NCBI GenBank assembly: GCA_015709495.1
Contig: CP054189.1
Span: forward strand, 806,001-870,000
Direction of reading: 5' to 3'
DNA from: Chthonomonadaceae bacterium
GTDB taxonomy: Bacteria > Armatimonadota > Fimbriimonadia > Fimbriimonadales > Fimbriimonadaceae
DNA length: 64,000 nucleotides
The number at the start of each line of letters is the position of its first letter. Position 1 is the stretch's first letter. The notes under the pieces are model-generated. The model did not search any database, had not been told where the DNA came from, and saw only the letters and a program-made list of their open reading frames with translations. Positions 6,748 through 23,710 of the stretch are shown here, one piece after another. Both the position numbers and the translations under genes were made by a program.

Positions 6748-6903
6748 GTGGCGTCCATCGGCACCGCTCTGCTCATCGCAGCCGCGATTTGTCTCTATGC
6801 TTGGCTGATCCTGCGCCGTCTTGGCGTGGGGCAACGCGGCATAACGCCCGATTGCGGCTGTGGTACCGGCAAAGCATGCAAAACCAAAAAGGTGAACCAA
6901 TGA
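6748..6903 (+). CDS. Small membrane protein with Cys-rich tail
   Basis: A 51-residue protein starting at GTG directly after the preceding stop. One membrane helix (about residues 4-22) is followed by a basic stretch and then CGCGTGKAC. This layout, one helix plus a short CGCG-type tail, resembles the small FeoB-associated Cys-rich membrane proteins. The stop overlaps the ATG of the cupredoxin gene (6900), which supports translational coupling. It may hand metal to a partner at the membrane. Its small size limits certainty. Confidence 0.55.
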   Translation: MASIGTALLIAAAICLYAWLILRRLGVGQRGITPDCGCGTGKACKTKKVNQ

Positions 6904-7052
6904 ATACGAAGCATTTCCAGACATTCGCAATCGTCGGTGTCCTTTCGTTCGCCATCGCTGGCTGCGCGACCAAGGCAGGAACATCCCAAGCGGAGAACCA
7001 ACCAACCATGACAAACACCACAGCAGGCGGGATTCAGAAAGCCATGATCACC
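6900..7052 (+). pseudogene. Cupredoxin-like lipoprotein, N-terminal half (interrupted by IS)
   Basis: Starts MNTKHFQTFAIVGVLSFAI and has a lipobox ending AGC at about residue 22, so the intact product would be an exported lipoprotein. The reading is broken at 7053 by an IS3-family element. Removing the element and one copy of the CACC target duplication joins this half in frame to 8280-8526, giving a continuous domain (KAMIT joined to IDGGKYTPNVV). The remaining short ORF runs only seven codons into the IS. Confidence 0.85.
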
Positions 7053-7116
7053 TGGTCTGCCCCCCAAAATTGAAGACGTCAGAAAAGTAGTTCTCTGGTT
7101 CAAACTGGAGGCAATC

Positions 7117-7422
7117 ATGAAGAGATCGAAGTTCAGCGAGGAGCAGATCGTGAGGATTCTGCAGGAGGCAGCATCGGGCCAGAAGACGCAGGCCCAGCTT
7201 TGCCGCGACCACGGAGTCAGCGCCAACACGTTCTACGTGTGGAAGCGCAAGTATGCGGGGATGCAGACCGACGATGTGCGGCATCTGCGCGAGCTCGAGC
7301 GGGAGAACGCTCAGCTCAAGCGTCTTCTTGCCGAAAGAGACCTTGAGATCGACGCGGTACGGGCGCTGTTCCGAAAAAACGGACTCGCGCTCCCGAACCC
7401 GTCGCGGGGGCGCGATTCCTGA
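7117..7422 (+). CDS. IS3-family transposase OrfA
   Basis: 101 residues with an N-terminal helix-turn-helix (KFSEEQIVRILQEA, then AQLCRDHGVSANTFYVWKRKY) and a leucine-zipper-like coiled segment (ELERENAQLKRLLAERDLEID), the standard OrfA layout. It binds the element ends and supplies the N-terminus of the frameshifted OrfAB transposase. The stop overlaps the first ATG of OrfB. Confidence 0.92.
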   Translation: MKRSKFSEEQIVRILQEAASGQKTQAQLCRDHGVSANTFYVWKRKYAGMQTDDVRHLRELERENAQLKRLLAERDLEIDAVRALFRKNGLALPNPSRGRDS

Positions 7423-8252
7423 TGGAGCGGAACATGACGGTCCGCAGGGCTTGCTGGATGACCGGGATCTCGACTCGCGCTGTTTATGAGGAGCCAGGGC
7501 CGGACCGGGACGCTGCGCTCAGGGAAGCACTCAGGAGGGTCTGGCGGCCCAACATGGGCTACCGGATGGCGCAAGCCCTGGTGAAGGAGGAGTTCGCTCC
7601 CTTGAACCTCAAGCGGGTGCATCGAATCTGGAAACAGGAGCGGCTCGGCCGCAAGACGCGATATCGCAAGAAGCGGACCGGGAACCCGGTTCCCCTGTCG
7701 GCGGAGCATCCCAACCACGTGTGGACGGTGGACTTTATCCATGATTCCTGCCTGAGCGGAACGAAGCTCAAGGTGCTTTCGGTGGAGGATGAGTTCACTC
7801 GGGAGTGCCTGGCTCTGGAGGTGGCGACGCGGATCAATGCTCGCAAGGTGCGCGACGTATTGGCTCCGCTCTTTGCCGATCGCGGGGCTCCCCGGTTCGT
7901 TCGGAGCGATAACGGCGGCGAGTTCGTTGCCCGGCTGCTCGCGGTGTTTCTCTCTGAATCCGGTTCGAACAGCCGCTTCATCGATCCGGGCAAACCCTGG
8001 CAGAACGGGTTCGTGGAGTCGTTCCACTCGACCCTGCGCCGGGATCACCTCGACGTCGAGGTCTTTGTCAATCTGGCCGACGCTCAGATGAAGACGGCGA
8101 TCTACCGTCGCTACTACAACGAGGTTCGGCCGCATTCGTCGCTTGGCTATCGCCCCCCGGCGGTGGCCGCGCAGAGTCTGGAGTTCAGTCGGGCTACGCC
8201 CTGCCTGCCCCCCAACCCTGCTGGGATATCATCAGCGGAGGTCTACTCTTAA
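7422..8252 (+). CDS. IS3-family transposase OrfB (DDE integrase core)
   Basis: 276 residues with an HTH_21-like N-terminal part (NMGYRMAQALVKEEF) and an rve integrase core. The DDE residues are visible in HVWTVDFIHD, FVRSDNGGEF and NGFVESFHSTLRRD, and the C-terminus has RPHSSLGYRPP. It is probably made mainly as an OrfAB fusion by frameshifting at the overlap with OrfA. It catalyses copy-out of the surrounding element. It appears intact. Confidence 0.92.
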   Translation: MERNMTVRRACWMTGISTRAVYEEPGPDRDAALREALRRVWRPNMGYRMAQALVKEEFAPLNLKRVHRIWKQERLGRKTRYRKKRTGNPVPLSAEHPNHVWTVDFIHDSCLSGTKLKVLSVEDEFTRECLALEVATRINARKVRDVLAPLFADRGAPRFVRSDNGGEFVARLLAVFLSESGSNSRFIDPGKPWQNGFVESFHSTLRRDHLDVEVFVNLADAQMKTAIYRRYYNEVRPHSSLGYRPPAVAAQSLEFSRATPCLPPNPAGISSAEVYS

Positions 8253-8279
8253 GATGTCTTCAACAATGGGGGCTGGCCA

Positions 8280-8526
8280 CACCATCGACGGTGGCAAATA
8301 CACGCCGAACGTCGTCACGGTCGAGCGTGGCAAGCCCGTGGAACTGACCTTCACAGGCGGCCCAGAACTGGGCTGCGGAGGCACGGTTGTCTTCAAGTCC
8401 CTCAACCAATCCAAAGAGGTCGAATCCGGCAAGTCCGTGACATTCGCCTTCACTCCAGACAAGGCCGGTGAGATCCCATTCACCTGCGGCATGGACATGT
8501 ACGACGGCAAAGTCGTCGTCAAGTGA
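8280..8526 (+). pseudogene. Cupredoxin-like lipoprotein, C-terminal half (after IS)
   Basis: Continues the protein broken at 7053: IDGGKYTPNVVTVERGKP, then GPELGCGGTVVFKSL and IPFTCGMDMYDGKVVVK. This is the EfeO/cupredoxin-like fold with candidate copper ligands Cys, His/Met and the TCGMDM loop. An ATG inside the IS end (8254) is in frame with this half, so a cytoplasmic, signal-less copper-domain fragment could be made if the IS drives transcription. That product would lack export and lipid attachment. The next gene begins 20 bp downstream, so the operon reads on past the insertion. Confidence 0.8.
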
Positions 8527-8546
8527 ATCCTTAAGGAAGCAGAACT

Positions 8547-9041
8547 ATGAACATTATCAACTCAATTTCGAGATCCCTCGCTTTGTTCGCCGTTATGGGC
8601 GCACTCAGCCTGGCCCCGATCGCTTCCGCCCACGAGGGCGACTGCCCGTACTGCAAGCTGAAACTGGTTCAGAACACGAAGGAGCAGGATAACGAAGTCG
8701 TCCTGAAGATGGGCAACAAGCGCATCGAATATCGGTGCATGTACTGCGTGATCAAGGATCAGGGTCGTTACAAGGGCGATCTCGTCGTTTACGCTCCGAG
8801 CGAGAAGGTTGGCGAGCCGGTCGTGCTCAAGCGCACGGGCGGAAAGTGGACCGCTCCCGAAGGCGCGGTCTTCCTCAACATCTTTAACAAGCACGCCGAC
8901 TGCGCCGCATTGTCCCGCGCTTTTTCCAGCAAGGCCGCTCTTGATGCTTACGTTGCGAAGCATAAAGTTGAAGGCGCAAAGGCACTTACGTTTGCTGAGT
9001 TTGCAGACGCGGTAACCAAACCAGCCAAGTTAAAACCATGA
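8547..9041 (+). CDS. Exported protein with paired Cys-x2-Cys motifs
   Basis: 164 residues with a signal peptide ending at SAHEGDC. The mature protein has CPYC (33-36), CMYC (64-67) and a later FNKHADCAALSRAF segment. The whole mature region matches the C-terminal third of the next protein (9038-10594): the same CxxC, CxxC, VFL..F..H..C...SRAF order. I do not recognise a named family; NosL-like copper proteins are a loose comparison. The pattern suggests metal or thiol chemistry in the periplasm. The stop overlaps the start of the next gene by 4 bp, so the two are likely coupled. Confidence 0.65.
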   Translation: MNIINSISRSLALFAVMGALSLAPIASAHEGDCPYCKLKLVQNTKEQDNEVVLKMGNKRIEYRCMYCVIKDQGRYKGDLVVYAPSEKVGEPVVLKRTGGKWTAPEGAVFLNIFNKHADCAALSRAFSSKAALDAYVAKHKVEGAKALTFAEFADAVTKPAKLKP

Positions 9042-10594
9042 AGGCCATCATCTTTTTCGGATTGACGGCCATGACCGCCATCGGCTTAGCGCAAGATCAT
9101 TCCGGTCATCAAATGGCCGGAATGAAGAAGCAGACCGAGCTTCCCGCCATGCCAACCGACATACCCGGTTGGCTGAATGCGCCCGGCGCAGACCACCTCT
9201 TCTACAAAGCTGCGCGCTACAACTGGGCGATCAATCGCATTCCAAAATTTGCGAAGGATATGTATGCGACGGGAGTCGGCCACGCGATGGCCTACGAGGC
9301 GCTCGTGCGCGGAGAAGCTTCGACACTCGAAACGAAGACCTTCGACAAGATCAATTGGGTCCTAAAGCATCCGCCAGCCATGCCCGTAGACGAGGGCGCG
9401 ATTTCGCCTACTTTTCTGCGCAAGTACGGCTACCTGGAGAAGGTATTCGACTGGGCGCACACGCTCCACTTCCAAACGATCGACGTTTTCGCGCATCCGG
9501 GCTGGACCGACGAGCAGAAGGAGAAGGAAATCGAGCGGCTGTGGGAGTTCTACGAAGCCCAGCCCTACGCGATCACTGGGTTGCCCATGAACATGGATTA
9601 CCTCGACAGCTTTCCGTATTCGATGAAGTTCCGCACCGATTACCCGAAGGTGAACGGCCTGTTTTGGGGTTACCACTGGTTGCAGACGGTCAACTACGAC
9701 ATGCTCTACAGAGTGCCGGTCAAGGATCAAGCGTCGCAGTACGAGGTGCTGGGCGCGAGATATCACGAAACAGAACTGTACAAGACGGACCGAGACTTCA
9801 TGCCGATGATGGCGGAGATGAGCCCACGCTTCGCCAAGCGTTTCCCCCAAATAGCGAACGCTTTCGACAACCTCCACATGCTTCACGACAACGTGAACGA
9901 TATCCTTGCCCAGCCGCAGCTCACAGAAGCCCAGAAGCAAGAGCAGGTGAAAATCGCGATCTACCGCGTCCTCGCTACCACCCACAAGGGCGAGACGCCC
10001 GGCGACAGCGAAGGTAAAGAGAACACCCTCCACGACCATCGCCACCCACCGAGCATGCCCGGCATGGGCTGGATGAAGGGTAGCGAAGACGACATTATGT
10101 GGATGTCCGGCATGGGCTGGATGGATATGAGTGCGTGTTCCCACTGCTCGATTCCTATGCCCGAAGGCAACCCTTGGGGCGCGACCGTTTCCGCCGAGGG
10201 TTGGACGATGATGGTGCGCTGCTTGATGTGCGCTCGCGATATGGCGGGCGAGACACCGGGTCGTGCGATCATCCGAGCGGCGACCAACGATCCGAACCGA
10301 CTCCTTGTTCTGATCTCCGACGAGGAAGGCAACTGGACTTCGAACATCGAAGGCATCGTTTTCTTGGAGAAGTTTGGAGAGCATCCGGAGTGCTCTGGCT
10401 GGTCTCGTGCGTTCACGACGCTTGCCGCCCTTGAGAAGTATGTCGCTGACAACCCGGAATACAAGGACACGAAACCGCTCACCTTGGCCGAGTGGGCCGC
10501 TTTGAATCACGCAACGCCCGATACCTACCGGAAGATTGACAAGCCCAATCCTTATAAACCCGGACCTCCTCCCTCAAATGGAGGCGGTAGATGA
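9038..10594 (+). CDS. Large exported His/Met-rich protein with C-terminal Cys-x2-Cys domain
   Basis: 518 residues. A signal peptide is followed by a short metal-binding-like stretch (DHSGHQMAGM). A helical domain of unknown family (about 45-320) is rich in Trp, Tyr and His, for example WAHTLHFQTIDVFAHPGW and ITGLPMNMDYLDSFPYSMK. A Met/His-rich linker (MPGMGWMKG, MSGMGWMDM) leads to the C-terminal domain with CSHC (367-370), CLMC and a later HPECSGWSRAF, related to the preceding gene. The operon context and the Met-rich repeats point to copper(I) binding. The enzymatic role, if any, is unknown. Confidence 0.65.
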   Translation: MKAIIFFGLTAMTAIGLAQDHSGHQMAGMKKQTELPAMPTDIPGWLNAPGADHLFYKAARYNWAINRIPKFAKDMYATGVGHAMAYEALVRGEASTLETKTFDKINWVLKHPPAMPVDEGAISPTFLRKYGYLEKVFDWAHTLHFQTIDVFAHPGWTDEQKEKEIERLWEFYEAQPYAITGLPMNMDYLDSFPYSMKFRTDYPKVNGLFWGYHWLQTVNYDMLYRVPVKDQASQYEVLGARYHETELYKTDRDFMPMMAEMSPRFAKRFPQIANAFDNLHMLHDNVNDILAQPQLTEAQKQEQVKIAIYRVLATTHKGETPGDSEGKENTLHDHRHPPSMPGMGWMKGSEDDIMWMSGMGWMDMSACSHCSIPMPEGNPWGATVSAEGWTMMVRCLMCARDMAGETPGRAIIRAATNDPNRLLVLISDEEGNWTSNIEGIVFLEKFGEHPECSGWSRAFTTLAALEKYVADNPEYKDTKPLTLAEWAALNHATPDTYRKIDKPNPYKPGPPPSNGGGR

Positions 10595-11355
10595 AAGGGC
10601 TCTTCATCGGCGCCGGGCTTGTATTAAGTTCGCTGGTACCCGCCAGCGACCACAACAACATAGAAGCGGGACGCCCCCTTCGCTTCGACGACGCTTACTC
10701 AATCGCTTTTCGCGAGCGCGCCTTTGAGTTCGGCTTAACGCTAGACACGTTTCGTCGGCGCGGCCCCAGCTACGGGAACAAAACCGAATTCAAGTACGGC
10801 TTCGCGAAGAACCAAGACATCTCGGTGGCCATTGAACCCACCTATTCAAGTCCTGAGCGAAGGGGCGATCTCGGGAATGTTGAGATTGGCTATTTCAACG
10901 GACTTCGCCGCCAGATTGACGACGCTCCAGCGCTTGCCTACCGGGTGGACGTCGGTCTGCCGACCGGCCGGGATGCGAAGGGGCTCGATTTGCGCTTCCG
11001 CGGCATCGCGACCAAGGCCCTGGGGCAATACGACAAGGTTCACCTCAATCTTGATCTCAACATGAACACGAGCCCCGGCCCCGGCGAACACCGTCACACC
11101 GTGGGAGCCGTGCTGGGCTACTCCACTCCGCTGGGCTACCCACGCCGTTTCGATCAAACTCTGGTGGCCGATTTCGCCGTGCAGCAGAGCAAGAAACAAG
11201 GTGAAGGCTACGTTGGATCGGTAGGTCTCGGCCTGCGCCGTCAAGTCAGTCCGCAAGCCGTGTTCGACATTGGCGTCACATCCGACCTCTTTTCGGCCAA
11301 GGGCGCGGAACGAAGGCCGTTCCGCCTTGCCATCGGCTACTCGGTTAGTTTCTAA
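10591..11355 (+). CDS. Outer-membrane beta-barrel-like protein
   Basis: 254 residues, overlapping the previous stop by 4 bp. A short signal peptide is followed by alternating polar/hydrophobic strands and it ends in FRLAIGYSVSF, a terminal aromatic residue typical of outer-membrane barrels. Segments such as LGNVEIGYFNGLRRQ and HTVGAVLGYSTPLGYPRRF resemble uncharacterised transporter-like barrels found in metal operons. It may provide an outer-membrane route or anchor for the exported metal proteins encoded just upstream. No specific family is certain. Confidence 0.6.
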   Translation: MKGLFIGAGLVLSSLVPASDHNNIEAGRPLRFDDAYSIAFRERAFEFGLTLDTFRRRGPSYGNKTEFKYGFAKNQDISVAIEPTYSSPERRGDLGNVEIGYFNGLRRQIDDAPALAYRVDVGLPTGRDAKGLDLRFRGIATKALGQYDKVHLNLDLNMNTSPGPGEHRHTVGAVLGYSTPLGYPRRFDQTLVADFAVQQSKKQGEGYVGSVGLGLRRQVSPQAVFDIGVTSDLFSAKGAERRPFRLAIGYSVSF

Positions 11356-11496
11356 TGGAAATGGTGATAGATAAGCACATTGACCCCGTTTGCGGGCTAA
11401 CAGTCGTCCTTAGGTTGATTGTGGGCACGTTCCGCAACCGATTCAATCTTCTATCACGCACACACTCGCTCAACGCCGAGAGTTCTATATGGTGTA

Positions 11497-12072
11497 ATGC
11501 AAATGGAAGAAACAAAACATAAACAGAATCAACAGATGCACATGTCATGGTGGCGATTTGCGGCTATGGTTTTTACGTCCACGGCAGTTATGTTCGTGCT
11601 TATGTACCAACTCGTGTACGAGCGGGATCACATGTTCTTTAGCATGAATCGGTTTGTCGCCTCGCTCGCGATGGGAGGTGTTATGACGGTCATCATGCTG
11701 GGCTTTATGTGGTCGATGTACAAGGGTACGAAACTGAAAATGGCTTTTTTCGTCGGCGGGGCCCTGGCGGCGGCGGGGCTACTCTATGTAAATCGGAGCC
11801 AGTCGCTTACCGACGACACCCGCTTTATGAAGTCGATGATCCCGCACCACTCCATCGCGATCAACAACGCTCGAAAGGCCACGATCAGCGATCCAAGGGT
11901 ACGCGAGTTGGCTAACGAGATCATCGCCGCACAGGTTCGAGAGATCGAGCTAATGAAGAGACTCATCGAAGACATCGAGAAACACGGAAAGCGCGGCAAT
12001 AACCCGCTTCCACCTCGAGATGCAGTTGTCACCGAGGAGATGCTGACCAAAATTCGTGAAGTGCTCAAATGA
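11497..12072 (+). CDS. DUF305 family membrane protein
   Basis: 191 residues starting [10 protein letters not shown]. It has membrane helices at about 18-40, 52-74 and 82-98, then the DUF305 signature [16 protein letters not shown] (His pair at 117-118). DUF305 proteins are small ferritin-like-fold proteins often found with copper resistance genes. The start overlaps no earlier gene (141 bp gap), so it may have its own promoter, and its stop overlaps the copA ATG by 4 bp. It probably works with the ATPase in copper handling at the membrane. Confidence 0.82.
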
Positions 12073-14480
12073 GCGACTCTGCGCGTCAATACGACCCCGT
12101 TTGCGGGATGCCGGTTGACCCCTCCGACTCGGGAGAGTCGTTTGAACACGGGGGGACGACGTACTACTTCTGCAGCAAAAGTTGCCTGGAGAAGTTCAAG
12201 GCGAACCCTGAGACCTTCCTGGTTCTAAAGCCTGCCGAGGTGGAAAAGCCGCAGGAAATGATGGTCGAATACACCTGCCCGATGCATCCTGAGATCGTGC
12301 AGAAAGGCCCGGGCAGTTGCCCAAAGTGCGGCATGGCGCTGGAGCCGCGTCATCCTGTCGCGTCGGCTAAGAATACGCAATGGACTTGCCCAATGCATCC
12401 GCAGATCGTGCAGGACAAGCCGGGGAGTTGCCCCATTTGCGGCATGGCGCTCGAACCCATGGAGGTCACCCTCGACGACGAGAATCCGGAGCTGCTGGAC
12501 ATGACGCGGCGCTTCTGGATCTCCACCGTCCTCTCGATTCCGCTTCTCTTGGCGGTGATGCCGCATCTGTTCGGATTCGATATAGGTGAATGGGTCCCGC
12601 ATGGGGTGCTGGGCTGGACCCAATTCGCGCTTGCTACGCCGGTCGTGCTTTGGGGAGGATGGCCGTTCTTCCAAAGAGGCTGGGCGTCGGTCATCAATCG
12701 CAGTCCCAATATGTTCACCTTGATCGCTTTGGGGACGGGAGTGGCATTGCTCTATAGCGTGGTCGGCGTGCTCGCGCCACAGGTCTTCCCGGCCTCCTTC
12801 CGCAACACGATGGGCGGCGTCGATCTCTACTTCGAGGCGGCGGCGGTGATTACCACGCTCGTCTTGCTTGGTCAGGTTTTGGAGCTTCGCGCTCGAAGCG
12901 CCACGAGCAGCGCGATTCGCGCCTTACTCGATCTTGCACCCAAGCAGGCACGGGTGGTGCGAGATGGAAAGGAAGAGGACATCCCTCTGGAACACGTCCA
13001 TATCGGTGACGCGTTGCGAGTGCGGCCAGGGGAGAAGATTCCAGTAGATGGGGTCGTAATCGACGGGCGCAGTTCGGTGGACGAATCCATGATCACGGGC
13101 GAACCGATGCCGGTGCAGAAGACGGAAGGCGATAGAGTGACGGGTGCGACCGTGAACGGAACGGGGAGCTTTGTTCTGCGGGCCGAGCGGGTTGGAAGCG
13201 AAACTCTGCTTGCCCAGATCGTGAAGATGGTGAGCGAGGCGCAGCGCTCGCGGGCTCCCATTCAAAAGTTGGCCGACACGGTTTCTGGCATTTTCGTGCC
13301 CATCGTAGTTGTGATCGCGATCGTTTCATTTATCGTGTGGGCGATGTTTGGGCCTGCGCCGGCAATGGCATACGCCGTGATCAACGCGGTGGCAGTGCTG
13401 ATCATCGCTTGCCCCTGTGCGTTGGGTTTAGCAACGCCGATGTCGATCATGGTCGGCACGGGAAAGGGTGCCCAAGCAGGCGTTCTGATCAAGAGCGCCG
13501 AGGCACTGGAGGCGTTTGAGAAAGTTGATACGCTGGTGGTTGACAAGACCGGCACGCTCACCGAGGGCAAGCCAAGGGTGGTTGCCGTCGTTCCTCTTGC
13601 AGAATTCTCGGACAAAGAGATTCTTGAAGTGGCCGGAGGACTTGAGCAAGGCAGCGAACATCCCTTGGCGGCGGCGGTTCTCTCTGGCCTCATGGAGCGG
13701 AATTTCGAGTCAAGTAAGGTGCAGGAGTTTGAGTCGGTGACCGGCAAAGGCGTGCGTGGCAAAATCGGCAACGACGTAGTCGCGCTTGGAAACCTTGCGT
13801 TGATGGAGTCAGTTGGTGTAGCTCCGGGGGATTCTGCGACAAGAGCAGAATCGATGCGAGCCGAAGGCCAGACCGTCATGTTCGTCGCTATGAGGACAAA
13901 GGTCGTGGGTCTGATCGGCGTCGCAGACCCTGTCAAGACAACAGCATCTGAAGCCTTAATAGCCTTGCACGACGAGAAGATTCGCGTCGTCATGGTCACG
14001 GGCGACAGCAAGACCACGGCGCAGGCCGTAGCCACAAAACTCGGCATCGACGAAGTCCATGCAGACGTTTTGCCCGAGGGCAAGATCGAAATCATCAAGC
14101 GACTCCAGTCCGAGGGGCGGTTCGTTGCCATGGCAGGTGACGGGATCAACGACGCCCCTGCTCTTGCTCAAGCTCAGGTTGGAATCGCGATGGGAACTGG
14201 CACCGACGTGGCAATGGAAAGCGCTGGAATCACCCTCCTCAAAGGCGATCTGACAGGACTGGTTCGGGCGAGAAGACTCAGCCGTGCGACAATGAGCAAC
14301 ATCCGCCAGAACCTCTTTTTCGCTTTCGTCTACAACGTCGCGGGAGTTCCAATTGCTGCGGGCGTTCTTTATCCGTTCACTGGTCTTCTACTGAGTCCGA
14401 TGATCGCGGCATTGGCAATGAGCTTAAGTTCTGTGTCCGTGATTGGCAATGCGCTGAGGCTACGGAGCACAAAACTGTAG
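12069..14480 (+). CDS. copA: Copper-translocating P-type ATPase with YHS and two heavy-metal-binding domains
   Basis: 803 residues. In order: an N-terminal YHS domain ([15 protein letters not shown]), two short heavy-metal-binding domains with CPMHPEIV and CPMHPQIV each followed by a CGMALEP motif, then a P1B ATPase core. The ion-path CPC is at 448-450, the phosphorylated Asp492 is in [11 protein letters not shown], and [20 protein letters not shown] marks the hinge. The [10 protein letters not shown] context is that of Cu/Ag pumps of the P1B-1 group. It exports Cu(I) using ATP. It carries no classical HMA domain; the YHS plus CPMHP modules replace it. Its stop is 119 bp before attachment copy 2. 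Confidence 0.92.
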
Positions 14481-14522
14481 CGTCGAATCGTTGCCATTTA
14501 ACGAGGCATCACGCCTGCGACC

Positions 14523-14569
14523 ACTGCAACGTACAACTGCAGAGGTCGATTAGGTTCAAAAGCGACCAT
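14523..14569 (+). repeat. Right-end module of island A: anticodon-stem dyad and GGTTCAAAA box
   Basis: CTGCA and TGCAG arms around 9 bp, running into AGGTCGATTAGGTTCAAAA. The same order occurs at 23711-23759 near the right end of island B, and a related TTCAGGTTCAAA lies at 52527-52538 near the right end of island C. The dyad copies the anticodon stem sequence of the target tRNA. These are candidate integrase or excisionase sites at the right end of each island. Confidence 0.5.
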
Positions 14570-14598
14570 TTTTGGCGAATATGTGTGTTGATCGAGAC

Positions 14599-14643
14599 AT
14601 CGCGCTGCAGAGGTCGTGAGTTCAAATCTCATCATCTCCACCA
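14599..14643 (+). repeat. Attachment-site repeat, copy 2 (boundary of islands A and B)
   Basis: A 45-bp copy of the tRNA-Ala 3' half with four differences from copy 1. Two of them, G to A in the 5' arm and C to T in the 3' arm of the T stem, are compensatory and keep the base pair. The fragment therefore looks like the end of a different functional tRNA-Ala, probably carried in from another host, rather than a decayed local copy. Confidence 0.85.
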
Positions 14644-14684
14644 GATTCAAATGAACCTAAAGTGGTTCCTAAGATTGGTTCCTA
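14643..14684 (+). repeat. Left-end module of island B with tandem putative arm sites
   Basis: Repeats the module after the tRNA: AGATTCAAATGAACCT, then TGGTTCCTA at 14663-14671 and TTGGTTCCTA at 14675-14684. The last part overlaps the 3' end of the Zn/Cd ATPase gene. Confidence 0.6.
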
Positions 14685-16792
14685 AACTGCGAGGCATTCA
14701 GAGTTCGCAATAGCCTCAGGCCATTTGCAACTACCAACAGACTCGCGCCCATGTCGGCAAAAACAGCCATCCATAGGGTCGCGACTCCGAAGAACGCGAG
14801 GGCGAAGAAAACGGCCTTCACGCCAATCGCAAAAATGATGTTCTGCTTCAGCACGAGCGAGGCTCGACGGCTAAGACGAATGAACTCTGGGATTTTTCGG
14901 AGGTCGTCTTGCATCAACGCAACGTCGGCGGTCTCAAGTGCCGTATCGGTTCCGGCCGCTCCCATTGCGAATCCGACATTCGCTTGTGCGAGAGCCGGCG
15001 CGTCGTTGATACCGTCGCCAACCATTCCGACGTGACCATTGTCAGCCGTAAGCTCTGTGATGATCGTCAGTTTGTCTTCTGGAAGCAGGTCACCGCGAGC
15101 GTCGTCAATGCCGACTTGGGCAGCGATGGCCCTCGCGGTTCTGACGTTATCGCCGGTGAGCATAAGAGTCTTCACGCCTAACGCGTGCAGCTCCTTAATT
15201 GCTTGGATGCTCGTTTCGCGGACGGTATCGGCTACGGCAATGACTCCGAGCGCCCGATCAGCGTTGCCGAGAATGACGACCGTCTTGCCCTGCTCTTCAA
15301 GCCGTTCGAGAACAGCTTCGACCTCTGCGCGGCAGTAGTCCTCCTCGTGGGCCAGCCGGTGGTTTCCAAGGAAGTATTGCTGCCCGTCAACGACTCCCTT
15401 CACCCCCCGCCCCGTTATGGACTCGAACTCTTCGACCGAAGCTCTCTGTCCTTCGTACGCAGCGACAATGGCAGTAGCCACGGGATGTTCTGAAGGGGCG
15501 TCGAGGCTAGCTGCTAAGCGAAGCAGTTCAGACTCCTCAATGGAATCAAACGGTACGACATCCGTCACCTTTGGCAAGCCGTGGGTCAACGTGCCGGTTT
15601 TGTCAAGAGCAATTTGCGAGAGCCTTCGACCCTCCTCGATGTAAGTGCCGCCCTTCACCAAGATCCCTCGTCTTGCGGCCGAAGCTATCGCACTGACGAC
15701 GGTGACCGGGGTCGAGATGACTAGCGCACACGGGCACGCGATCACCAAGAGCACCAATGCTTTGTAGAGCCAAAGCGAGAACGATTGGGCGAAAAGCAAT
15801 GGCGGAACGGTGGCAATCAGAATCGCCAATAGGACGACGAGCGGCGTGTAGTACCGGGCGAACTGGTCGACGAAGCGCTGCGTCGGCGCCTTCTGACTCT
15901 GCGCTTGCTGCACGGCCCGAATGATCCGTGCCAGTGTCGTTTGCCCTGTGTTCGCCGTAACCTCAAAATCGAAACTGCCTTTCTCGTTGATCGTCCCTGC
16001 AAAGACCTGATCTCCAACCAGCTTGGCAACGGGGATGCTCTCTCCGGTGATAGGAGCTTGGTTGACACTTGATGAACCTTCTTTTACGAGGCCATCTAAC
16101 GCGATTCGCTCTCCCGGCCGGACCCTCACGAGTTGCCCCACGGCAACGCTGGAAGCTTCGATTTCGACCCATTCGTTTCCGACCAATGCAAGGGCACGCT
16201 CGGGGGACAATTCCATGAGTGAGCGAATCGCGTGACGCGCCCGATCCAGGGAGAATGCTTCGATCATTTCAGCTACGCCAAAGAGGAAAGTGACCATCGC
16301 TGCTTCTGGCCATTGGCCGATGAAAGCCGCCCCAATGATCGCGATGGTCATCAGGAAATTGATGTTCAGCGCTAATGTGCGAAGGGAAACGATTCCCTTG
16401 CGAATCGTTTCCCTCCCGCCGAGCGCAATCGAGCCAAGTGCTAGAGCGATAACGGGCCACGACCGTTCTGTGCCGGTATTCCACGCGATGACTTCGGCGG
16501 TCACCGCGAGGACTCCGGAAGCTCCCATGAGCCATCGATCAAGGACTGGAACGGCCGGTCCATGCCCAGCCGATTCGGGCTCGTTATCACTGACGAGCTT
16601 TGGATCCATTCCTACCGATTCGAGGGCTCGCTGAATCCTGCCTTCGTCGGAATGTCCGTGGATTACCGTCAACTTGCGGCTCATGAGGTCGAAGTCAAGC
16701 TGCTCGATCCCCTCCATACCTTTCAAGCGGTTCCGAATAATGCCTTCCTCCGTGGGGCAATCCATCTTGCCGATGTGGAAGATCGTCTTCAT
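14669..16792 (-). CDS. cadA: Zn/Cd/Pb-type P-type ATPase
   Basis: 707 residues. An N-terminal HMA-like domain has the MDCPTEE motif (10-16), typical of ZntA/CadA pumps. The membrane core has CPC at 353-355 followed by ALVISTPVTVVSAIASAARRG, the Zn/Cd (P1B-2) signature, and the phosphorylated Asp397 is in [29 protein letters not shown] follows. It pumps divalent soft metals out of the cytoplasm. The start overlaps the end of czcA by 4 bp, so it is the last gene of the operon, and pairs cytoplasm-to-periplasm export with the CzcCBA periplasm-to-outside route. Confidence 0.9.
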   Translation of the reverse strand: MKTIFHIGKMDCPTEEGIIRNRLKGMEGIEQLDFDLMSRKLTVIHGHSDEGRIQRALESVGMDPKLVSDNEPESAGHGPAVPVLDRWLMGASGVLAVTAEVIAWNTGTERSWPVIALALGSIALGGRETIRKGIVSLRTLALNINFLMTIAIIGAAFIGQWPEAAMVTFLFGVAEMIEAFSLDRARHAIRSLMELSPERALALVGNEWVEIEASSVAVGQLVRVRPGERIALDGLVKEGSSSVNQAPITGESIPVAKLVGDQVFAGTINEKGSFDFEVTANTGQTTLARIIRAVQQAQSQKAPTQRFVDQFARYYTPLVVLLAILIATVPPLLFAQSFSLWLYKALVLLVIACPCALVISTPVTVVSAIASAARRGILVKGGTYIEEGRRLSQIALDKTGTLTHGLPKVTDVVPFDSIEESELLRLAASLDAPSEHPVATAIVAAYEGQRASVEEFESITGRGVKGVVDGQQYFLGNHRLAHEEDYCRAEVEAVLERLEEQGKTVVILGNADRALGVIAVADTVRETSIQAIKELHALGVKTLMLTGDNVRTARAIAAQVGIDDARGDLLPEDKLTIITELTADNGHVGMVGDGINDAPALAQANVGFAMGAAGTDTALETADVALMQDDLRKIPEFIRLSRRASLVLKQNIIFAIGVKAVFFALAFFGVATLWMAVFADMGASLLVVANGLRLLRTLNASQFRNQS

Positions 16793-19700
16793 AGCTCCTC
16801 CGGAACTTCGTTATCGCGCTCGAACCATGTGTAAAGAACGGGAAGAACGAGGAGAGTGAGCAACGTGGCAGAGGCGATTCCGCCAATAACCACCGTTGCC
16901 AAGGGCCTTTGGACTTCTGCTCCTATGCCCGTGTTGAGCGCCATTGGAATGAATCCCAGCGCGGCAACGAGCGCTGTCATGAGCACCGGGCGAAGGCGTT
17001 GTTGAGCGCCTTCGCTGACCGCGTCTTTCACTAGGAGCTTGCCTTCTTGGCGCAATCGGTTTATTGCCGATACCATCACAACGCCATTCAAGACAGCCAC
17101 GCCAGACAAGGCGATGAAGCCTACGCCGGCCGAGATGCTAAATGGCAGCCCTCTAATCCATAGGGCAAGAACACCGCCCGTCACGGCCAGTGGCACGCCG
17201 GTAAATATGAGCAAGGCTTGCTTGATCGAGCCGAAGGTCATAAAGAGCAGTGCGAAGATCAAGGCAAGCGCCAGAGGCACCACGATCATCAATCGTGCGC
17301 TCGCTTGCTGTAGGTTTTCAAACTGGCCACCCCAGGTGATGTAATAGCCTTCGTCCAACTTCACCTTCTGCTCGATGGCTTTTTGGGCTCTGGCGACAAA
17401 CCCGGCAAGGTCGGTCCCGCGAACGTTGAGCTGAACTACCACGCGTCGCTTGCCCGATTCCCGGCTGATTTGGGCTGGAGCCGGCTGATTGTCGATGTGC
17501 GCGAGACTCGATAGCGGGACCGACTCTCCATTGGCGAGCTTGACGGGCAAACTCGCAATCGCATCAGCGTCGTTTCGTACTTCAGCAGGCAAACGAACAA
17601 TCAGTTCATACCGCTTGTCCCCTTCACGAATCTGCCCGATCTCTTCGCCGCCCAAGGCTGAGCTGATCAACTCTTGGACTTCGCTGATCGATACGCCGAA
17701 CCGCCCAATTGCCTCGCGGTCGATGTCGATTTGGAGGACCGGAATGGGCTCAACCTGCTCGACTTCGACGTCGGCCGCGCCGGGGATTTCCGCCACGACC
17801 GCCCGGATCTCTTCAGCCTTCTGGCGAAGGACTTCAAGGTCCTCGCCAAACACCTTGATTCCAATATCGGCCTTGACGCCGGAGACCAGCTCCGAGAACC
17901 GCATTTCGATAGGTTGCGAAAAGTTATAGCCTTGTCCCGGCACTTCGTTGAGCTTCTTCTCGATCTCTTCTCGAATCTTCTCCTTGGTCATCCCGGCACG
18001 CCACTGATCTCGCTCTTTCAGCATGATAAAGCTGTCGGTGAGACTTAGCGGCATTGGATCAGTGGCGACTTCAGGCGTTCCGCTCCGGGAGAACATCGTA
18101 ATCACTTCCGGAACTTCCAGCACCTTCTTCTCGGCGGCGGTTACAAGCCGGATCGTCTCCTCTGCGTTGACGGTTCGGATACGAATCGGCTGCACTACGA
18201 GATCGCCTTCATCCAACGTCGGGATGAACTCCGCGCCAAGCGTGGTGAAAAGCCAGCCCGCAATTCCTAAGAGAATCAAGGCGCCTGCGACAACGATTGC
18301 CTTTGCTCGAAGCGCAAAGGACAACGCTGGTTTGTACACACGGCTAAAAAATCCCATGATCGGGTTCTTGCCTTCGCGGGTGTCGCCGGACAAGAAAAGG
18401 CTTGCAAGAGCTGGAACCAATGTGAGGGTCAAGGCCAGCGCGCCGAGAAGCGCAAAGACGACCGTAAAGGCCATCGGCTTGAACATCTTGCCTTCGGTTC
18501 CTTCGAGAGCCAGGATCGGCAGATAGACGACGGTGATAATCGAAACCGCGAAGGCCGTCGGTTTAGCCACTTCCTTCGAGGACTCCCAGACCACGTGCCT
18601 TACATCGTGGCGGCTCAGCGTCTTCCCCGCATGCTCACGGGCTTCGGCAAGCCTGCGCACGGCGTTTTCGATCATGACGACCGCGCCGTCGACGATCAAA
18701 CCGAAGTCGATCGCGCCGAGGCTCATGAGGTTGCCCGAAATGCCCCACTGGTTCATCATGCCGATCGCAAAGAGCATCGAAAGGGGAATCGCCGAAGCGA
18801 CAATCAACGCTCCGCGCCAGTTGCCGAGCAAGACGAGGAGGACAACGATGACGAGAATCCCGCCCTCCAGCAGGCTTTTCTCAACCGTGCCAACCGTCTT
18901 GTTTACCAAATGGGCACGGTTGTAGACCGTGGTCAGCTTGACGTCTTCAGGGAGCTGCGCCTTGATCTCTTCTATCTTCGCGTCCACTGCCTGAGCGACC
19001 GTTCGTCCATTGGCACCCTTTAGCATCATCGCGATGGCGAGGAGAGCTTGGTGGCCGTCCTTTGTGCTCAGTCCGGTCACTACCGGTGTCCCCGTTGTGA
19101 CTTCGGCCACGTCGCGAACGAGCACAGGGGTGCCGTCTTCAGATGAAACCGGGATCGTTTCGATTTCTGCAGGATTCGAAGCCATTCCGACTGACCGGAT
19201 AAGCGTCCTCTCACCGCCGGCGTCCAGTACGCCGCCGCCCGCATTCTGGTTATTGTTTTGTAGCGCTTCGATGAGGTCATGGATTCCCAGGCCACGCGCT
19301 TGCAGCCGAGCCATGTCGGCTATGACCTGGTATTGCTTGACGTTGCCGTCAGCCACATTGACTTCTGCAACCCCTGCGACCGAGCGAAGCTGAGGTGCGA
19401 TCTGCCAGTCCATGATGGTCCGGAGATCGGTGATCGATCTCTTGTCACTTTCGACGGCGAACATATAGATGTCGCCAAGCCCAGTCGATACGGGTCCCAT
19501 TTGCGGAGCATCGATGTTGGCCGGGAGATCTGCACCCACCCGGCTCAGGCGCTCGTTGACAAGCTGGCGAGCGAAGAAAATGTCCACATTGTCGTGGAAT
19601 GTGACTGTCACTTGGGAGAGCCCGTACTGGCTGAGCGATCGTGTGCCTCGTACACCCGGAAGACCGGCCATCGCCGTTTCAATGGGGAATGTGATCAGGC

Positions 19701-19887
19701 GTTCGACTTCCTCGGGCCCCATTCCCCCGGTCAGGGTGTTGACCTGAACTTGATTCGTGGTGATGTCGGGAACGGCGTCTAGATTGAGCCTGGTCCACGA
19801 AAGGACGCCCCAAAAGACGAGCCCGATGGTTCCTGCAAACACCAGCAGGCGCTGGGTTAAGCTGAAATGGAGGAGTCTATCCAACAT
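16789..19887 (-). CDS. czcA: CzcA/CusA-family heavy-metal RND efflux pump
   Basis: 1032 residues, the usual length for HME-RND pumps. Starts MLDRLLHFSLTQRLLVF with the first membrane helix. The early periplasmic loop has VPDITTNQVQVNT and GPEEVERLITFPIE, hallmarks of the CzcA family. Helix 4 carries SLGAIDFGLIVDGAVVMIEN, with the acidic residues expected for the proton relay. It forms the inner-membrane trimer of a tripartite pump driven by protons, with the neighbouring czcB adaptor and czcC channel. The DFGLIVDG arrangement is the type seen in divalent-cation (Zn/Co/Cd) pumps. Metal choice within that group cannot be fixed from sequence. Confidence 0.92.
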   Translation of the reverse strand: MLDRLLHFSLTQRLLVFAGTIGLVFWGVLSWTRLNLDAVPDITTNQVQVNTLTGGMGPEEVERLITFPIETAMAGLPGVRGTRSLSQYGLSQVTVTFHDNVDIFFARQLVNERLSRVGADLPANIDAPQMGPVSTGLGDIYMFAVESDKRSITDLRTIMDWQIAPQLRSVAGVAEVNVADGNVKQYQVIADMARLQARGLGIHDLIEALQNNNQNAGGGVLDAGGERTLIRSVGMASNPAEIETIPVSSEDGTPVLVRDVAEVTTGTPVVTGLSTKDGHQALLAIAMMLKGANGRTVAQAVDAKIEEIKAQLPEDVKLTTVYNRAHLVNKTVGTVEKSLLEGGILVIVVLLVLLGNWRGALIVASAIPLSMLFAIGMMNQWGISGNLMSLGAIDFGLIVDGAVVMIENAVRRLAEAREHAGKTLSRHDVRHVVWESSKEVAKPTAFAVSIITVVYLPILALEGTEGKMFKPMAFTVVFALLGALALTLTLVPALASLFLSGDTREGKNPIMGFFSRVYKPALSFALRAKAIVVAGALILLGIAGWLFTTLGAEFIPTLDEGDLVVQPIRIRTVNAEETIRLVTAAEKKVLEVPEVITMFSRSGTPEVATDPMPLSLTDSFIMLKERDQWRAGMTKEKIREEIEKKLNEVPGQGYNFSQPIEMRFSELVSGVKADIGIKVFGEDLEVLRQKAEEIRAVVAEIPGAADVEVEQVEPIPVLQIDIDREAIGRFGVSISEVQELISSALGGEEIGQIREGDKRYELIVRLPAEVRNDADAIASLPVKLANGESVPLSSLAHIDNQPAPAQISRESGKRRVVVQLNVRGTDLAGFVARAQKAIEQKVKLDEGYYITWGGQFENLQQASARLMIVVPLALALIFALLFMTFGSIKQALLIFTGVPLAVTGGVLALWIRGLPFSISAGVGFIALSGVAVLNGVVMVSAINRLRQEGKLLVKDAVSEGAQQRLRPVLMTALVAALGFIPMALNTGIGAEVQRPLATVVIGGIASATLLTLLVLPVLYTWFERDNEVPEEL

Positions 19888-20007
19888 GACTTGAAACCTC
19901 CTGCAATGCGTGCGTGGCTTTTTCTTCTGTCGAAGCAGACCGACATCCGCACTCAGCGCTTAATAGAGGAGCCAGCACTAGCCAGCGAAGTACACGCAGA
20001 ACTCGCC

Positions 20008-20382
20008 TCATCTTGCCACGATCCTGTATGTTTGGAAGCTGGACGTCATGGGCGGTTCTTGACCGGCGTCCATGGCCCTCTTTATATCAGCGAAGCCTCG
20101 CTGATGTCCTTCGGCGAACTCAGGAGAGCAAACCCAAGCTTGGAAGTCACCTTCGTTCTTCCATTGGCTCAAGATTAGATAGGCCTCGCGTGCTCGCTCG
20201 GGGCGGAGTACGAACATTTCCACGAATCCTGGAACGCGGTCGATCGCATGGGCACGAGTGGCGAAAAGCTCCTCAAATCGAGGTGCATAGTCTTCTCGGA
20301 CCGTTATATAGTTGATCGCCACGAAATGGGCTGGGCCACACGGAGTCGCGCACCCACAATGAGTTGTTGTTTGTTGATCCAT
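20008..20382 (-). CDS. Antibiotic-biosynthesis-monooxygenase-fold small protein
   Basis: 124 residues. The N-terminus is MDQQTTTHCGCATPCGPAH, a Cys/His-rich lead that may bind metal, followed by an ABM dimeric alpha/beta-barrel domain: FVAINYITVREDYAPRFEE, VPGFVEMFVLRP and YLILSQWKNEGDFQAWV. ABM domains include heme-degrading and quinol monooxygenases. The ATG overlaps the czcB stop by 1 bp (TAATG), so it sits inside the efflux operon between czcB and czcA. Its role there is unclear; protection from metal-linked oxidative damage is a guess. An ABM protein inside a czc operon is unusual. Confidence 0.7.
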   Translation of the reverse strand: MDQQTTTHCGCATPCGPAHFVAINYITVREDYAPRFEELFATRAHAIDRVPGFVEMFVLRPERAREAYLILSQWKNEGDFQAWVCSPEFAEGHQRGFADIKRAMDAGQEPPMTSSFQTYRIVAR

Positions 20383-21974
20383 TAGTCTTCATGCCCCTTG
20401 AGTTCGCCCTTGACCTTCTCGCTCTTAAGCACGAAGGCACCCTTGCTGACCACCCGGTCACCCATGGAAACGCCTTCGAGTATCTCGACAAAATCCCCTT
20501 GGGTTCGTCCGAGAATGACCGTGCGTTCTTCAAACTTGCCGCCGTCCTCAGCGATGTACAGCTTTCGAGCGTCTCCGTCCTCGACGATCGCGCTGACTGG
20601 AACGGTCAAAGCTTGAGATCGAGACCCGACACCCAAACGAACCGTCACGGCCATGCCGCTACGTAGCTGCGAATCCGAGTTGTCGACAAGGACTTGAACC
20701 GGCATCGACCTCGTCTTTGGATCGAGGCGGCTTCCTATCGACTGGATTAGGCCATTGAATACACGATTGGGATAGGCGCTGACACTTACCTGTGCGACGC
20801 TTCCAACTTTTGCCCTTCCGATCTGCTTGTCAGAGACCTGCGCCACGACCCAAACGGAGGTGAGGTTCTCGATCTCTCCGAGCTCGGTCGTCCTTTCAAC
20901 GGCTTGCCCAATTGTGGCCTCAAGATCGACGATTGCGCCGCTGATTGGCGCGTTGACGACGAGCAATCCACCGGACGCTCGTCCTGACCCGGCCAAGGCC
21001 GAGTAGCCAGTTCTTGCCGCTTCTACCCCTTTCTTGGCTGCCACAACACCGGCATTGGCGGAGCCCAGCCGGATGTGCGCTTGCTGGACTTCGAGGTTTG
21101 CGGAGCGAACCTCTGCTTCTGCGGCTTGGATTTCTCGCGAATTCGAGAGACCTTGTTCGGCAATCTTTCGCTCCCGCTCGTATGTCGCTTTAGAGAGTTC
21201 GATCCGCCTCTCGGCATTGCGCTGTCGAATTTTATCGGTAGCCACCTCGAGCCTTGCTTGCTCCAACTCAGTGCGCGAGATGAGCTCTTGCTTGTAAAGT
21301 CGTTCCGCCCGTTCCAACTGTGCTTCATGGACGGCCTGGTCTTGTCTTCCCCGTTCAAGCTCCGCTTCGGCGTCGGCCAGTTCCTTTTGGGCGGCTTGGA
21401 GAGCGGGCTGACTAAATGCACCCGTTTTGGCGAATGCTTGTTGCCGGGCCAATTGCTGTTTGGCTGTGCGCAATTTCGCGTTTGCCAAATTGATCTCGGC
21501 AGTTGCTTCTCTTACTGCAGCCTGCGCCGAAACGACCCCTTGCTGCGCTTCGATGATCTGCGCTGACGCTTGTGCCAGCTCTCCGGAACGCAGTGTCGCG
21601 ATAGGTTGTCCAGCTCGAACTCGGTCACCAGGCTTCACATGAAGCCGAACGACTTGCCCACCAACAGGAGGAGTAACAATCGCACGGCCGTGGGAGGAAG
21701 TGGTTACCGTTCCCGGGACCTTCAGTTCTTGCTGAAGCAGCCTCCGCTCGACCGGTTGTGTCTCAATGCCAGCAATCTTGATGGCCTCCGCAGTTAACTG
21801 GATGTCTTCGGTGTGACCAGCTTCCTCTTTGGTAGCTCCTGATTCACCCTCAGTGTGCCCGGCTTCTTCGTGGCCATGCTCGTCCTTTGAAGCTGCCGCC
21901 CCCCCGTCCTTCGCGCACCCGGCCAAGGCAACGGCGAGAACGCCAAGAATCCAGATGAAGTGGATTCGTTTCAT
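20382..21974 (-). CDS. czcB: CzcB-type membrane fusion protein (lipoprotein)
   Basis: 530 residues. A lipoprotein signal with lipobox ALAGC is followed by a His-rich segment (KDEHGHEEAGHTEG, EEAGHTED) that may bind metal. The barrel-sandwich motif VGGQVVRLHVKPGDRVRAGQPIA comes next, and a long alpha-helical hairpin region (about 130-330) is longer than usual for CzcB. The C-terminus has KGAFVLKSEKVKGELKG. It bridges CzcA and the outer-membrane channel. It overlaps czcC (4 bp) and the ABM gene (1 bp). Confidence 0.9.
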   Translation of the reverse strand: MKRIHFIWILGVLAVALAGCAKDGGAAASKDEHGHEEAGHTEGESGATKEEAGHTEDIQLTAEAIKIAGIETQPVERRLLQQELKVPGTVTTSSHGRAIVTPPVGGQVVRLHVKPGDRVRAGQPIATLRSGELAQASAQIIEAQQGVVSAQAAVREATAEINLANAKLRTAKQQLARQQAFAKTGAFSQPALQAAQKELADAEAELERGRQDQAVHEAQLERAERLYKQELISRTELEQARLEVATDKIRQRNAERRIELSKATYERERKIAEQGLSNSREIQAAEAEVRSANLEVQQAHIRLGSANAGVVAAKKGVEAARTGYSALAGSGRASGGLLVVNAPISGAIVDLEATIGQAVERTTELGEIENLTSVWVVAQVSDKQIGRAKVGSVAQVSVSAYPNRVFNGLIQSIGSRLDPKTRSMPVQVLVDNSDSQLRSGMAVTVRLGVGSRSQALTVPVSAIVEDGDARKLYIAEDGGKFEERTVILGRTQGDFVEILEGVSMGDRVVSKGAFVLKSEKVKGELKGHED

Positions 21975-23200
21975 GGCTTTACCTCCAGAATCTGACCTGA
22001 TGCGCGAATCAGCCGCGCCTGGGCCTGCGCCAAACGGGTTCGCGCTTCGACATATGCCTGCTCAAGATCTCGCAGGACTCGGGTGGCATCAAGGACCTCA
22101 ATCAAGGTCGTCGCCTGCTCGGTAAGACCAGGCCGTAGCCGGTTCACCAGGTCCTTTGCCCGCCCAACCAGTGCCTCGTACTTGCCGACTTGGTCGCTCG
22201 CAGATTTCACTGCGATTTGCGATGCTCGAACTTCGCCTTCGGCCAACTTGGTGGCGTCGTCAAGCGCCTTGCGTGCGGCTTCGGCTCTCATTCCCGCGGA
22301 CTTCGTTTCGGATGCGACGCGACCGTGATCAAAGAGCGGGAAAGACAGTTGGAGGCGAAGGCCATACCGATCGTTTCGCTCCTGCCATGGGGTTCGCCTT
22401 CCCTGCAGCTCCAGTTCCGGTCGGCCGCTTGCGCGTGCAATCTCTATGTCGGCCTCGGCAAGTTGCGCCTGCGCCTGTAGGAGCAGAAGTTCGGGCCGCT
22501 GACGCCTCAGCACTTCCGAATCCGCTTGAATTGCCACAAGGTCCGGGAATCCGCCCTGAAATTCGCGCAACTCGGTTAACCCGGTCGAGGATTCGAGCTT
22601 TCGCAGCGCCGCCTCCAATTCTGCGTGCCGCTGTTCGGCCCGAAGCTTTGCCTGCTCAAGATCAAGGCTTACCTGCGTTAGGTGGAATCCGGGAGCAATA
22701 CCACCTTCGACCCGCAGGCGTGTCGCTTCATGGAGCTGCTCATAGACTGACTGCACGGCCCGTGCACTCTTCGCCAGTTCAGATGATACGACGGCGTTCA
22801 GATATGCCTCAAGAACTTCCGTTTGAACATCGAGCGAGATTTGGCGGAAGCTGGCTTCTGCTTCCGCGACAAGCGCTCGGCCCGAGCGCCGAATAGCGCT
22901 TGTTCGACCAAATAGGTCGATTGGTTGAGACAAGACGAGGTCGTCGTCTGACCCACCAGTTTCTGGATCAGTCGTATACCCGACGAAAAGGCGCGTCGCG
23001 GGATATGCCCCTAGTGCGCGACTGGTCAATTTCGATTGGCTTAATCTAAGATTAGCCGCCTGTAACAAGGGTCGATTTGCTCGGGCCGAACGAAGAACGT
23101 CGTTCAGCCCGATCTGCTGGGCGTGCGCCATAATGGCGACGCCAGCAAGACAGAATATGGTTAGGGTTCTCAAGAAATCTCCAACTGAGGTTAGGGTCAC
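21971..23200 (-). CDS. czcC: CzcC-type outer-membrane efflux protein (TolC family)
   Basis: 409 residues. Signal peptide ending at MAHAQQ, then two TolC-like repeats: IGLNDVLRSARANRPLLQAANLRL in the first and ALRKLESSTGLTELREFQG in the linker. LSQPIDLFGR is a typical CzcC segment. Long amphipathic helices follow to the end. It forms the trimeric outer-membrane channel of the tripartite pump with CzcA and CzcB, whose genes follow. It overlaps czcB by 4 bp and lies 26 bp after the Cys-rich gene. Confidence 0.88.
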   Translation of the reverse strand: MTLTSVGDFLRTLTIFCLAGVAIMAHAQQIGLNDVLRSARANRPLLQAANLRLSQSKLTSRALGAYPATRLFVGYTTDPETGGSDDDLVLSQPIDLFGRTSAIRRSGRALVAEAEASFRQISLDVQTEVLEAYLNAVVSSELAKSARAVQSVYEQLHEATRLRVEGGIAPGFHLTQVSLDLEQAKLRAEQRHAELEAALRKLESSTGLTELREFQGGFPDLVAIQADSEVLRRQRPELLLLQAQAQLAEADIEIARASGRPELELQGRRTPWQERNDRYGLRLQLSFPLFDHGRVASETKSAGMRAEAARKALDDATKLAEGEVRASQIAVKSASDQVGKYEALVGRAKDLVNRLRPGLTEQATTLIEVLDATRVLRDLEQAYVEARTRLAQAQARLIRASGQILEVKP

Positions 23201-23226
23201 GGCTCCGCGCGGTGCGGAGCAAACGA

Positions 23227-23637
23227 CTAGCTCAGTTGGAACGGCGGGGCGCGCGAAGGAGAGGTTGATGGCGGTGCATTGGGAAAGCCCTGCTCAATGT
23301 GCGCAAAAACGACCTTGCAGACAATGCTCCGAACGGCAGGCAAGCATATCGCTTGCGGAAGGATCGCGAAAACGGGTTGGAATTGCTGAGGCGGAACTGC
23401 CGTTTGTTTCTCGTTGGAATTAGTGCAAGACGTCAGAGTGCAGCACTCATGGCAATCTTGTGATTCACTGACCGAGAACGTTGGCTCAGAATGACTCTCT
23501 ATTTCGCCGTCTAAGCAAGGTCCGCGCGGACAAGTCGGGCACTCTTTACCGTCGGGCAGCACCCAGGCGCCGGAGCAAGCATGAGCTTGACCTAGCAGGA
23601 GCAACCATATGAGAATCAGAGCACGGCCCAAGGGCAC
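23227..23637 (-). CDS. Small Cys-rich exported protein, first gene of the czc operon
   Basis: 136 residues starting at GTG (MPLGRALILIWLLLLGQAHA, a signal peptide). The mature part has CPTCPRGPC, CHECCTLTSC and a C-terminal SRAPPFQLS. Size, position at the head of the operon, Cys pairs and the RAPP tail all match the first gene of island A (4523-4990), although direct identity is low. A -10-like CATAAT lies 8 bp before the GTG, so this message also looks nearly leaderless. I do not know the family. A periplasmic metal sensor or chaperone is a reasonable guess. Confidence 0.65.
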   Translation of the reverse strand: MPLGRALILIWLLLLGQAHACSGAWVLPDGKECPTCPRGPCLDGEIESHSEPTFSVSESQDCHECCTLTSCTNSNEKQTAVPPQQFQPVFAILPQAICLPAVRSIVCKVVFAHIEQGFPNAPPSTSPSRAPPFQLS

Positions 23638-23645
23638 AACATTTC

Positions 23646-23651: not shown

Positions 23652-23710
23652 GCGAAATTGCTGTGGGACATGGAGTCCGTGTTGCCGGGTCGTCAGAGGC
23701 TGAGGAACGT

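Follow-up and report, generated by a model that had tools for sequence, protein, structure and literature searches.

A natural T-stem allele of tRNA-Ala(CGC) in an attachment copy between two tandem metal-resistance islands of a Fimbriimonadales bacterium

The stretch of 64,000 nucleotides analyzed here (the window) comes from a genome that consists of a single contig of 2,897,187 bases, and contains an intact tRNA-Ala(CGC) gene, recognized by ARAGORN and Rfam at positions 4318-4393 of the forward strand, which is the integration target of a tandem array. The 3' half of this gene, attachment copy 1 (4349-4393, repeat family D1), is followed by island A (4394-14598), attachment copy 2 (14599-14643), island B (14644-23790), copy 3 (23791-23835), element C (23836 to about 52543) and the decayed copy 4 (52548-52574), all four copies lying on the forward strand. 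As in the islands recognized by the Islander software, the island is flanked by the tRNA gene and by a cognate fragment that points the same way, and the repeats seen in the array are tRNA halves. The right arms of A and B join the core of the attachment copies at ATCGCAC, in the anticodon loop. Copies 1 and 2 have in common a stretch of 89 nt with 89% identity, 44 nt of which are located past CCA; copy 3 has the same sequence as the copy 1 core, and its likeness to the other copies stops at CCA. When up to three mismatches were allowed, the final 26 nt of copy 2 were found at three sites of the window (4368, 14618 and 23810) and at none in 100 shuffles. In copy 4, A52 and U62 are present with a 3-nt gap between them. 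Copy 4 and the last attachment copy of G135, a genome labelled as the same species, are followed by identical sequences of 19 nt (98% identity over 40 nt including the end of the core), and, judging by those 19 nt, we take this sequence to be a probable old chromosomal junction.

Island A begins with a left arm (4394-4437, forward strand) in which the word TTGGTTCCTA occurs twice and to which a stretch after copy 2 is similar; with up to three mismatches, the left-arm pattern was found at 15 places in 10 of the 291 genomes of the phylum, the window's own two included. The island encodes a YHS/TRASH protein, a DUF305 protein and a copper-type P-type ATPase, and ends in a right arm (ATTAGGTTCAAAA...GAGAC, 14549-14598, forward strand) that is 0.88-0.90 alike over 40 nt to its equivalents in G135, G077 and G104. 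An IS3-type element at 7052-8279 interrupts the island, and a 98.8% identical copy of this element occurs at G135:908399-909626, adjoining the last attachment copy of that genome. Two 79-nt repeats (12268-12457), 78% alike, are located inside the open reading frame (ORF) of the copper-type ATPase, where Pfam finds two HMBD heavy-metal-binding stretches. The left arm of island B (14644-14687, forward strand) agrees in 43 of 44 nt with those in G135 and G077, and the cargo of this island consists of a P-type metal ATPase, a CusA/CzcA-family RND pump, a HlyD/CusB-type adaptor and an outer-membrane channel. Element C combines its own integrase with defence-type cargo, including a PLD/SNF2 helicase, a type IIG/ISP restriction-modification protein, an AlbA/Schlafen-like protein, a reverse transcriptase (best PADLOC models, general RT and UG17) and a SIR2-like protein. 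Direct repeats of ACCCCGAGATTT (23878-23914, forward strand, repeat family D4) near the left end of C are possible arm sites of the integrase, and repeats of the same family that are 84% like this set lie near the right end (52449-52485, forward strand). A search that was run without a positive control found no DNA match of 23836-30000 in G135 or G136.

The only integrase detected among these elements is that of element C, the 433-aa tyrosine integrase P0002 (51134-52435, reverse strand; Pfam Phage_integrase, 5.6e-17), so that an integrase within each island, as used by Islander, is found for C and, among the ORFs tested, not for A or B. No site-specific recombinase domain was found in any of the eight ORFs tested in island A, one of which is a transposase-type rve, nor in eight ORFs of the counterpart of island A in G135, and none of the six ORFs tested in island B contains a recombinase domain; the ORFs tested in A and B were the larger ones. 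Of 12 hand-picked genomes, five (G135, G077, G126, G176 and G072) have an integrase of another type, P0001, that begins 64-65 nt to the right of an attachment copy, and in G135 the integrase is located right of the island B counterpart. There is no P0001-type integrase in the array of the window; the sole P0001 homologue of the window genome, with 73% identity, is encoded at 341715-342905. The possibility that P0002 is the same integrase as P0001 was rejected: both are assigned to Pfam Phage_integrase, yet BLASTP gave no meaningful alignment between them (best E 0.020). Neither protein was recognized as an integron integrase, with P0001 scoring 24.2 bits and P0002 scoring 27.6 bits against an integrase_gron cut-off of 265. 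With attachment sites at both ends and no integrase in the ORFs tested, A and B resemble cis-mobilizable islands, and the left-arm words that they have in common suggest that they were mobilized in trans, by an integrase such as P0001.

Compared to copy 1, copy 2 carries the substitutions A37G, G52A, G57A and C62T. Positions 52 and 62 form a base pair of the T stem, which changes from GTGGG/CCCAT in copy 1 to GTGAG/CTCAT in copy 2 through the replacement of a G-C by an A-U pair, and positions 37 and 57 are loop positions. Alignment of the two copies confirms the sequence-only reading of this DNA, in which four substitutions had been counted, two of them swapping a T-stem G-C pair for A-U and keeping the fold. 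The same reading considered such a paired change to be unlike neutral decay, and this judgement held: in a simulation of four random substitutions in this 45-mer, a compensated T-stem pair with an intact stem was obtained in 0.9% of the cases and a broken stem in 54.5%. Neutral decay, that is, four random substitutions of which two happened to pair, would accommodate the two private loop changes and the visibly broken state of another fragment, in G071, but is hardly credible given the chance of about 0.9% and the recurrence of the same pair in 12 of the 30 intact genes of the scanned regions described below. The host 5' half joined to copy 2 is read as tRNA-Ala(CGC) by ARAGORN and the same half joined to copy 4 is not, which is a weak test since the broken G071 fragment passes it too.

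The distribution of the paired change among relatives was surveyed in 291 Armatimonadota genomes (mostly a single genome for each species, G135 being among the few exceptions, and drafts included), using a pattern with free letters at positions 37, 50, 52, 57, 62 and 64 and up to two mismatches. This pattern, which misses more diverged genes and left 232 of the 291 genomes without a match, identified 85 copies in 59 genomes, all confined to one order of the phylum. Among the 85 copies, the T-stem types were GTGGG/CCCAT (50 copies), GTGAG/CTCAT (20), GAGGG/CCCTT (6), AGGGG/CCCCT (6), GGGAG/CTCCT (2) and one broken stem, with a single unpaired cell out of 425, and A52-U62 was present in 22 of these matching copies, from 17 of the 59 genomes with a match. 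In a set of 41 regions, chosen from earlier matches so that allele shares in them are not population frequencies, GTGAG/CTCAT was found in 12 of 30 intact tRNA-Ala(CGC) genes and in 7 of 23 fragments, copy 2 included, and one further fragment combines A52-U62 with G50-C64. T66 also occurs in 3 of the 12 intact A52-U62 genes. Some of the intact GTGAG/CTCAT genes belong to other genera with related metal islands (for example, G077), and G135 carries the A-U allele in its intact tRNA gene and in two fragments. Because it is present in intact genes, A52-U62 is a natural allele of intact tRNA-Ala(CGC) genes, and the interpretation of the paired 52/62 change as the mark of a tRNA selected for its fold, and not of decay, is supported.

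In copy 2, every position of the T stem is paired, and the same stem type occurs in intact genes; the 45 nt of copy 2 as a whole correspond to no intact gene among the copies matched. An identical 45-nt copy of 14599-14643 was found nowhere else, among 19 places in one search and 85 in another. Within the 85 copies, copy 2 is alone in having A57 and shares G37 only with the broken fragment of G071, and neither change was found in an intact tRNA-Ala(CGC) gene among the copies matched, so the changes at 37 and 57 look like later decay, private as far as seen. The proposal of the sequence-only reading that copy 2 is the end of a working tRNA from a different host, and gives a tag for the donor, can accordingly be retained in part. 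The allele does belong to intact genes, including those of other genera, and as a donor tag it fails, being spread over 17 genomes, the same-species G135 among them; similarly, the 3' half of tRNA-Ala(CGC) identical to 14599-14643 that was to reveal the donor is not found as an exact match, and a match exists at the level of the allele. A single foreign donor, namely a host from a different genus whose tRNA ends in precisely this sequence, is highly improbable: G077 has the allele as well as an A-B junction that is 95-98% like that of the window over the last 500 nt of A, but no other copy with all four changes appears among the matches in the 291 genomes, and 17 genomes, one of them labelled as the same species, have the allele.

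A named scan for the 31-nt variant returned ten stretches in nine records, all nine of which correspond to genomes of this order, and no donor from outside the order was seen among these nine records. A donor outside the phylum was considered for one of them, titled 'Methanoregulaceae archaeon SJ84', and rejected: this record corresponds to G130:C16, which is placed in the same bacterial family, and its title was taken as a mislabel. The locus concerned, L061 (JADZEW010000016.1), titled 'Methanoregulaceae archaeon', is thus probably part of a mislabelled assembly. An exact-pattern search gave no match in viral_contigs, and blastn of 14560-14720 gave none in plasmids or phages; a viral or plasmid carrier was rejected on these results.

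Transfer of islands between genomes is suggested by G135 and G077, which belong to different genera. From core 1 to core 3, these two genomes differ by 16 mismatches and no indels over 19,363 nt, their counterparts of A and B being near-identical as a pair, and two of the 16 mismatches are positions 52 and 62 of the third copy. The 4 kb that precede the tRNA gene gave no blastn match between the two genomes, and the 5' halves of their tRNA genes differ by one base. Since the islands are near-identical, the upstream DNA is unmatched and the tRNA 5' halves differ, we read this identity as a likely recent transfer, bounded inside the tRNA gene. G077 also has, between two attachment copies, a mini-cassette of 1.6 kb (locus L071, about 6522-8105; G077:C1:2321521-2323104) that encodes a MerR regulator and a thioredoxin-like protein. 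Upstream of tRNA-Ala(CGC) in several other genera, chromosomal DNA is found that in G135 lies downstream of the array (G135:C1:912930-926276), and a 4-kb part of it is present in the window genome, inverted and 61 kb upstream of that gene (G000:C1:744980-748980); this displaced DNA indicates a rearrangement beside the array.

Between the window and G135, the 4.3 kb left of the tRNA gene are 94.6% identical and island B is 83.1% identical. Over its last 500 nt, island A is 95-98% identical to the corresponding junction of G135 and G077, the stretch 14700-14899 of island B has its nearest relative in G176 (93-96%), where the copy at this place is of the G-C type, and further right in island B the nearest relative varies. 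On the basis of these comparisons, we assign copy 2 to the lineage of the A-B junction seen in G135 and G077; for the arm, this assignment relies on 44 nt. Because the adjoining part of island B is nearest to G176 with its G-C copy, the assignment requires an extra, later crossover within or close to the 44-nt arm. Relative to G126, the islands are mosaic, with patches of 95-99% identity amid stretches of 65-80%, from which it follows that homologous exchange occurs. The same mosaicism would permit an in-place conversion, in which copy 2 was overwritten after insertion by recombination with an A-U tRNA gene; this is very unlikely, however, as the block similar to G135 and G077 continues beyond the left end of copy 2 for about 500 nt of island A, suggesting that an island junction was the source rather than a single tRNA gene.

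The alleles flip in both directions: in G135, copies 1-3 are of the A-U type and the last copy is G-C, and in G126 the arrangement is the reverse. There is no strict tie between the allele and either neighboring island. For left arms at least 0.90 alike, the allele agrees in 11 of 18 pairs and differs in 7, the pairs not being independent, and for left arms at least 0.98 alike, a cut-off set after the list had been seen, 6 of 9 similarly non-independent pairs agree. For the preceding right arms, agreement is seen in 5 of 10 pairs at 0.85 and in 3 of 7 at 0.95 or above, again with pairs that are not independent. These counts refute a strict linkage of the allele to the left or to the right neighbor. 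Identical right arms on the left side can precede fragments of different alleles, which means that the T arm is not set by the left-hand element. The T stem GGGAG/CTCCT is common to the distal fragment of G176 and the other full-length match of that genome (C18:31767), as expected if the distal copy is the former 3' half of the host gene. According to published descriptions, tyrosine integrases often cross over at the tRNA anticodon loop, the element supplying the 3' part that restores the gene (PMC4383910, PMC8371274), and the distribution of the alleles is in keeping with such an anticodon-loop crossover.

Taken together, these data favor, with a probability of roughly 0.85, a reading of copy 2 as a tandem-insertion junction that carries an A52-U62 half, the 3' half of the tRNA being swapped at each insertion by a tyrosine integrase. 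Observed directly are the status of the allele, the tandem order, the shared ends, and a tRNA half together with both islands in near-identical form in two genera. On this basis, two islands would have entered one tRNA-Ala(CGC) gene in tandem, leaving copy 2 as the attachment junction between them. The tyrosine integrase would swap strands at or near the anticodon loop, the presumed crossover position, and every insertion would hand the host gene the 3' half of the incoming element and displace the previous half. Copy 2 would then represent a half of the A52-U62 allele found in intact tRNA genes of many Fimbriimonadales, and, once out of service, would have gained the two unpaired changes at 37 and 57. 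In the order of events that we infer, copy 2 most likely arrived with the left end of island B, from the lineage now present in G135 and G077.

One observation counts against import: copy 4 has U62 too, so that A-U may be resident in this lineage. Under a resident allele, the lineage's own tRNA would have been A52-U62, island A with a G-C half would have displaced it, and copy 2 would not have been imported with island B. This possibility, which draws on the A-U type of copy 4, the last in the array, and on the A-U pair of the intact tRNA of G135, appears rather unlikely, for G135 has the G-C type in its last copy, with the identical 19 nt behind it, and the arm on the right side of copy 2 belongs with the island lineage of G135 and G077. 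Moreover, if the crossover occurs in the anticodon loop, island B itself should have supplied the half on its left.

A broader scheme, to which we would assign slightly less than even odds, is that Fimbriimonadales possess a tRNA-anchored cassette system, in which integrase-less metal-resistance cassettes of 1.6-10 kb with standard ends stack up at tRNA-Ala(CGC), depend for their movement in trans on a resident P0001-type tyrosine integrase and are exchanged between genera in blocks. Each arrival would rewrite half of the tRNA, and T-stem alleles would thus spread with the islands and flip to and fro within a species.

The mechanism is known in outline, and the array is a clear new example of it, as well as a clear case of metal-resistance islands found in more than one genus of a little-studied phylum. 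A published description of these arrays was not found in the literature searched, with most subscription journals outside the reach of this search. The instructive point is the paired T-stem polymorphism, carried and apparently swapped by the islands: the paired 52-62 alleles are a readable record of the island-derived half of the tRNA, suggest that the host gene has been overwritten in both directions, and would make the order of tandem insertions testable.

Several known systems are comparable. Tycheposons, likened here by description, appear to be similar in that cargo elements with a tyrosine recombinase are located at a tRNA gene (PMC10872708). The ssrA islands of Dehalococcoides, as portrayed in PMC3146451, also lie in tandem at one RNA gene with many direct repeats, and 15 of them lack an integration module and were proposed to be mobilized with their neighbors by accretion. 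They differ in their use of tmRNA and serine recombinases, whereas the array described here, in another phylum, involves tRNA-Ala(CGC), tyrosine recombinases and metal-resistance cargo. The tRNA islands outlined in the Islander report (PMC4383910) share with this array a tRNA gene accompanied by equally oriented cognate 3' fragments, a gene-restoring fragment on the element, and tandem arrangements. In the tandem arrays called there, each member has its own integrase and fragment, unlike A and B, in which no integrase was seen, and, in comparison with those islands, the gene and the fragment described here differ by a natural paired allele.
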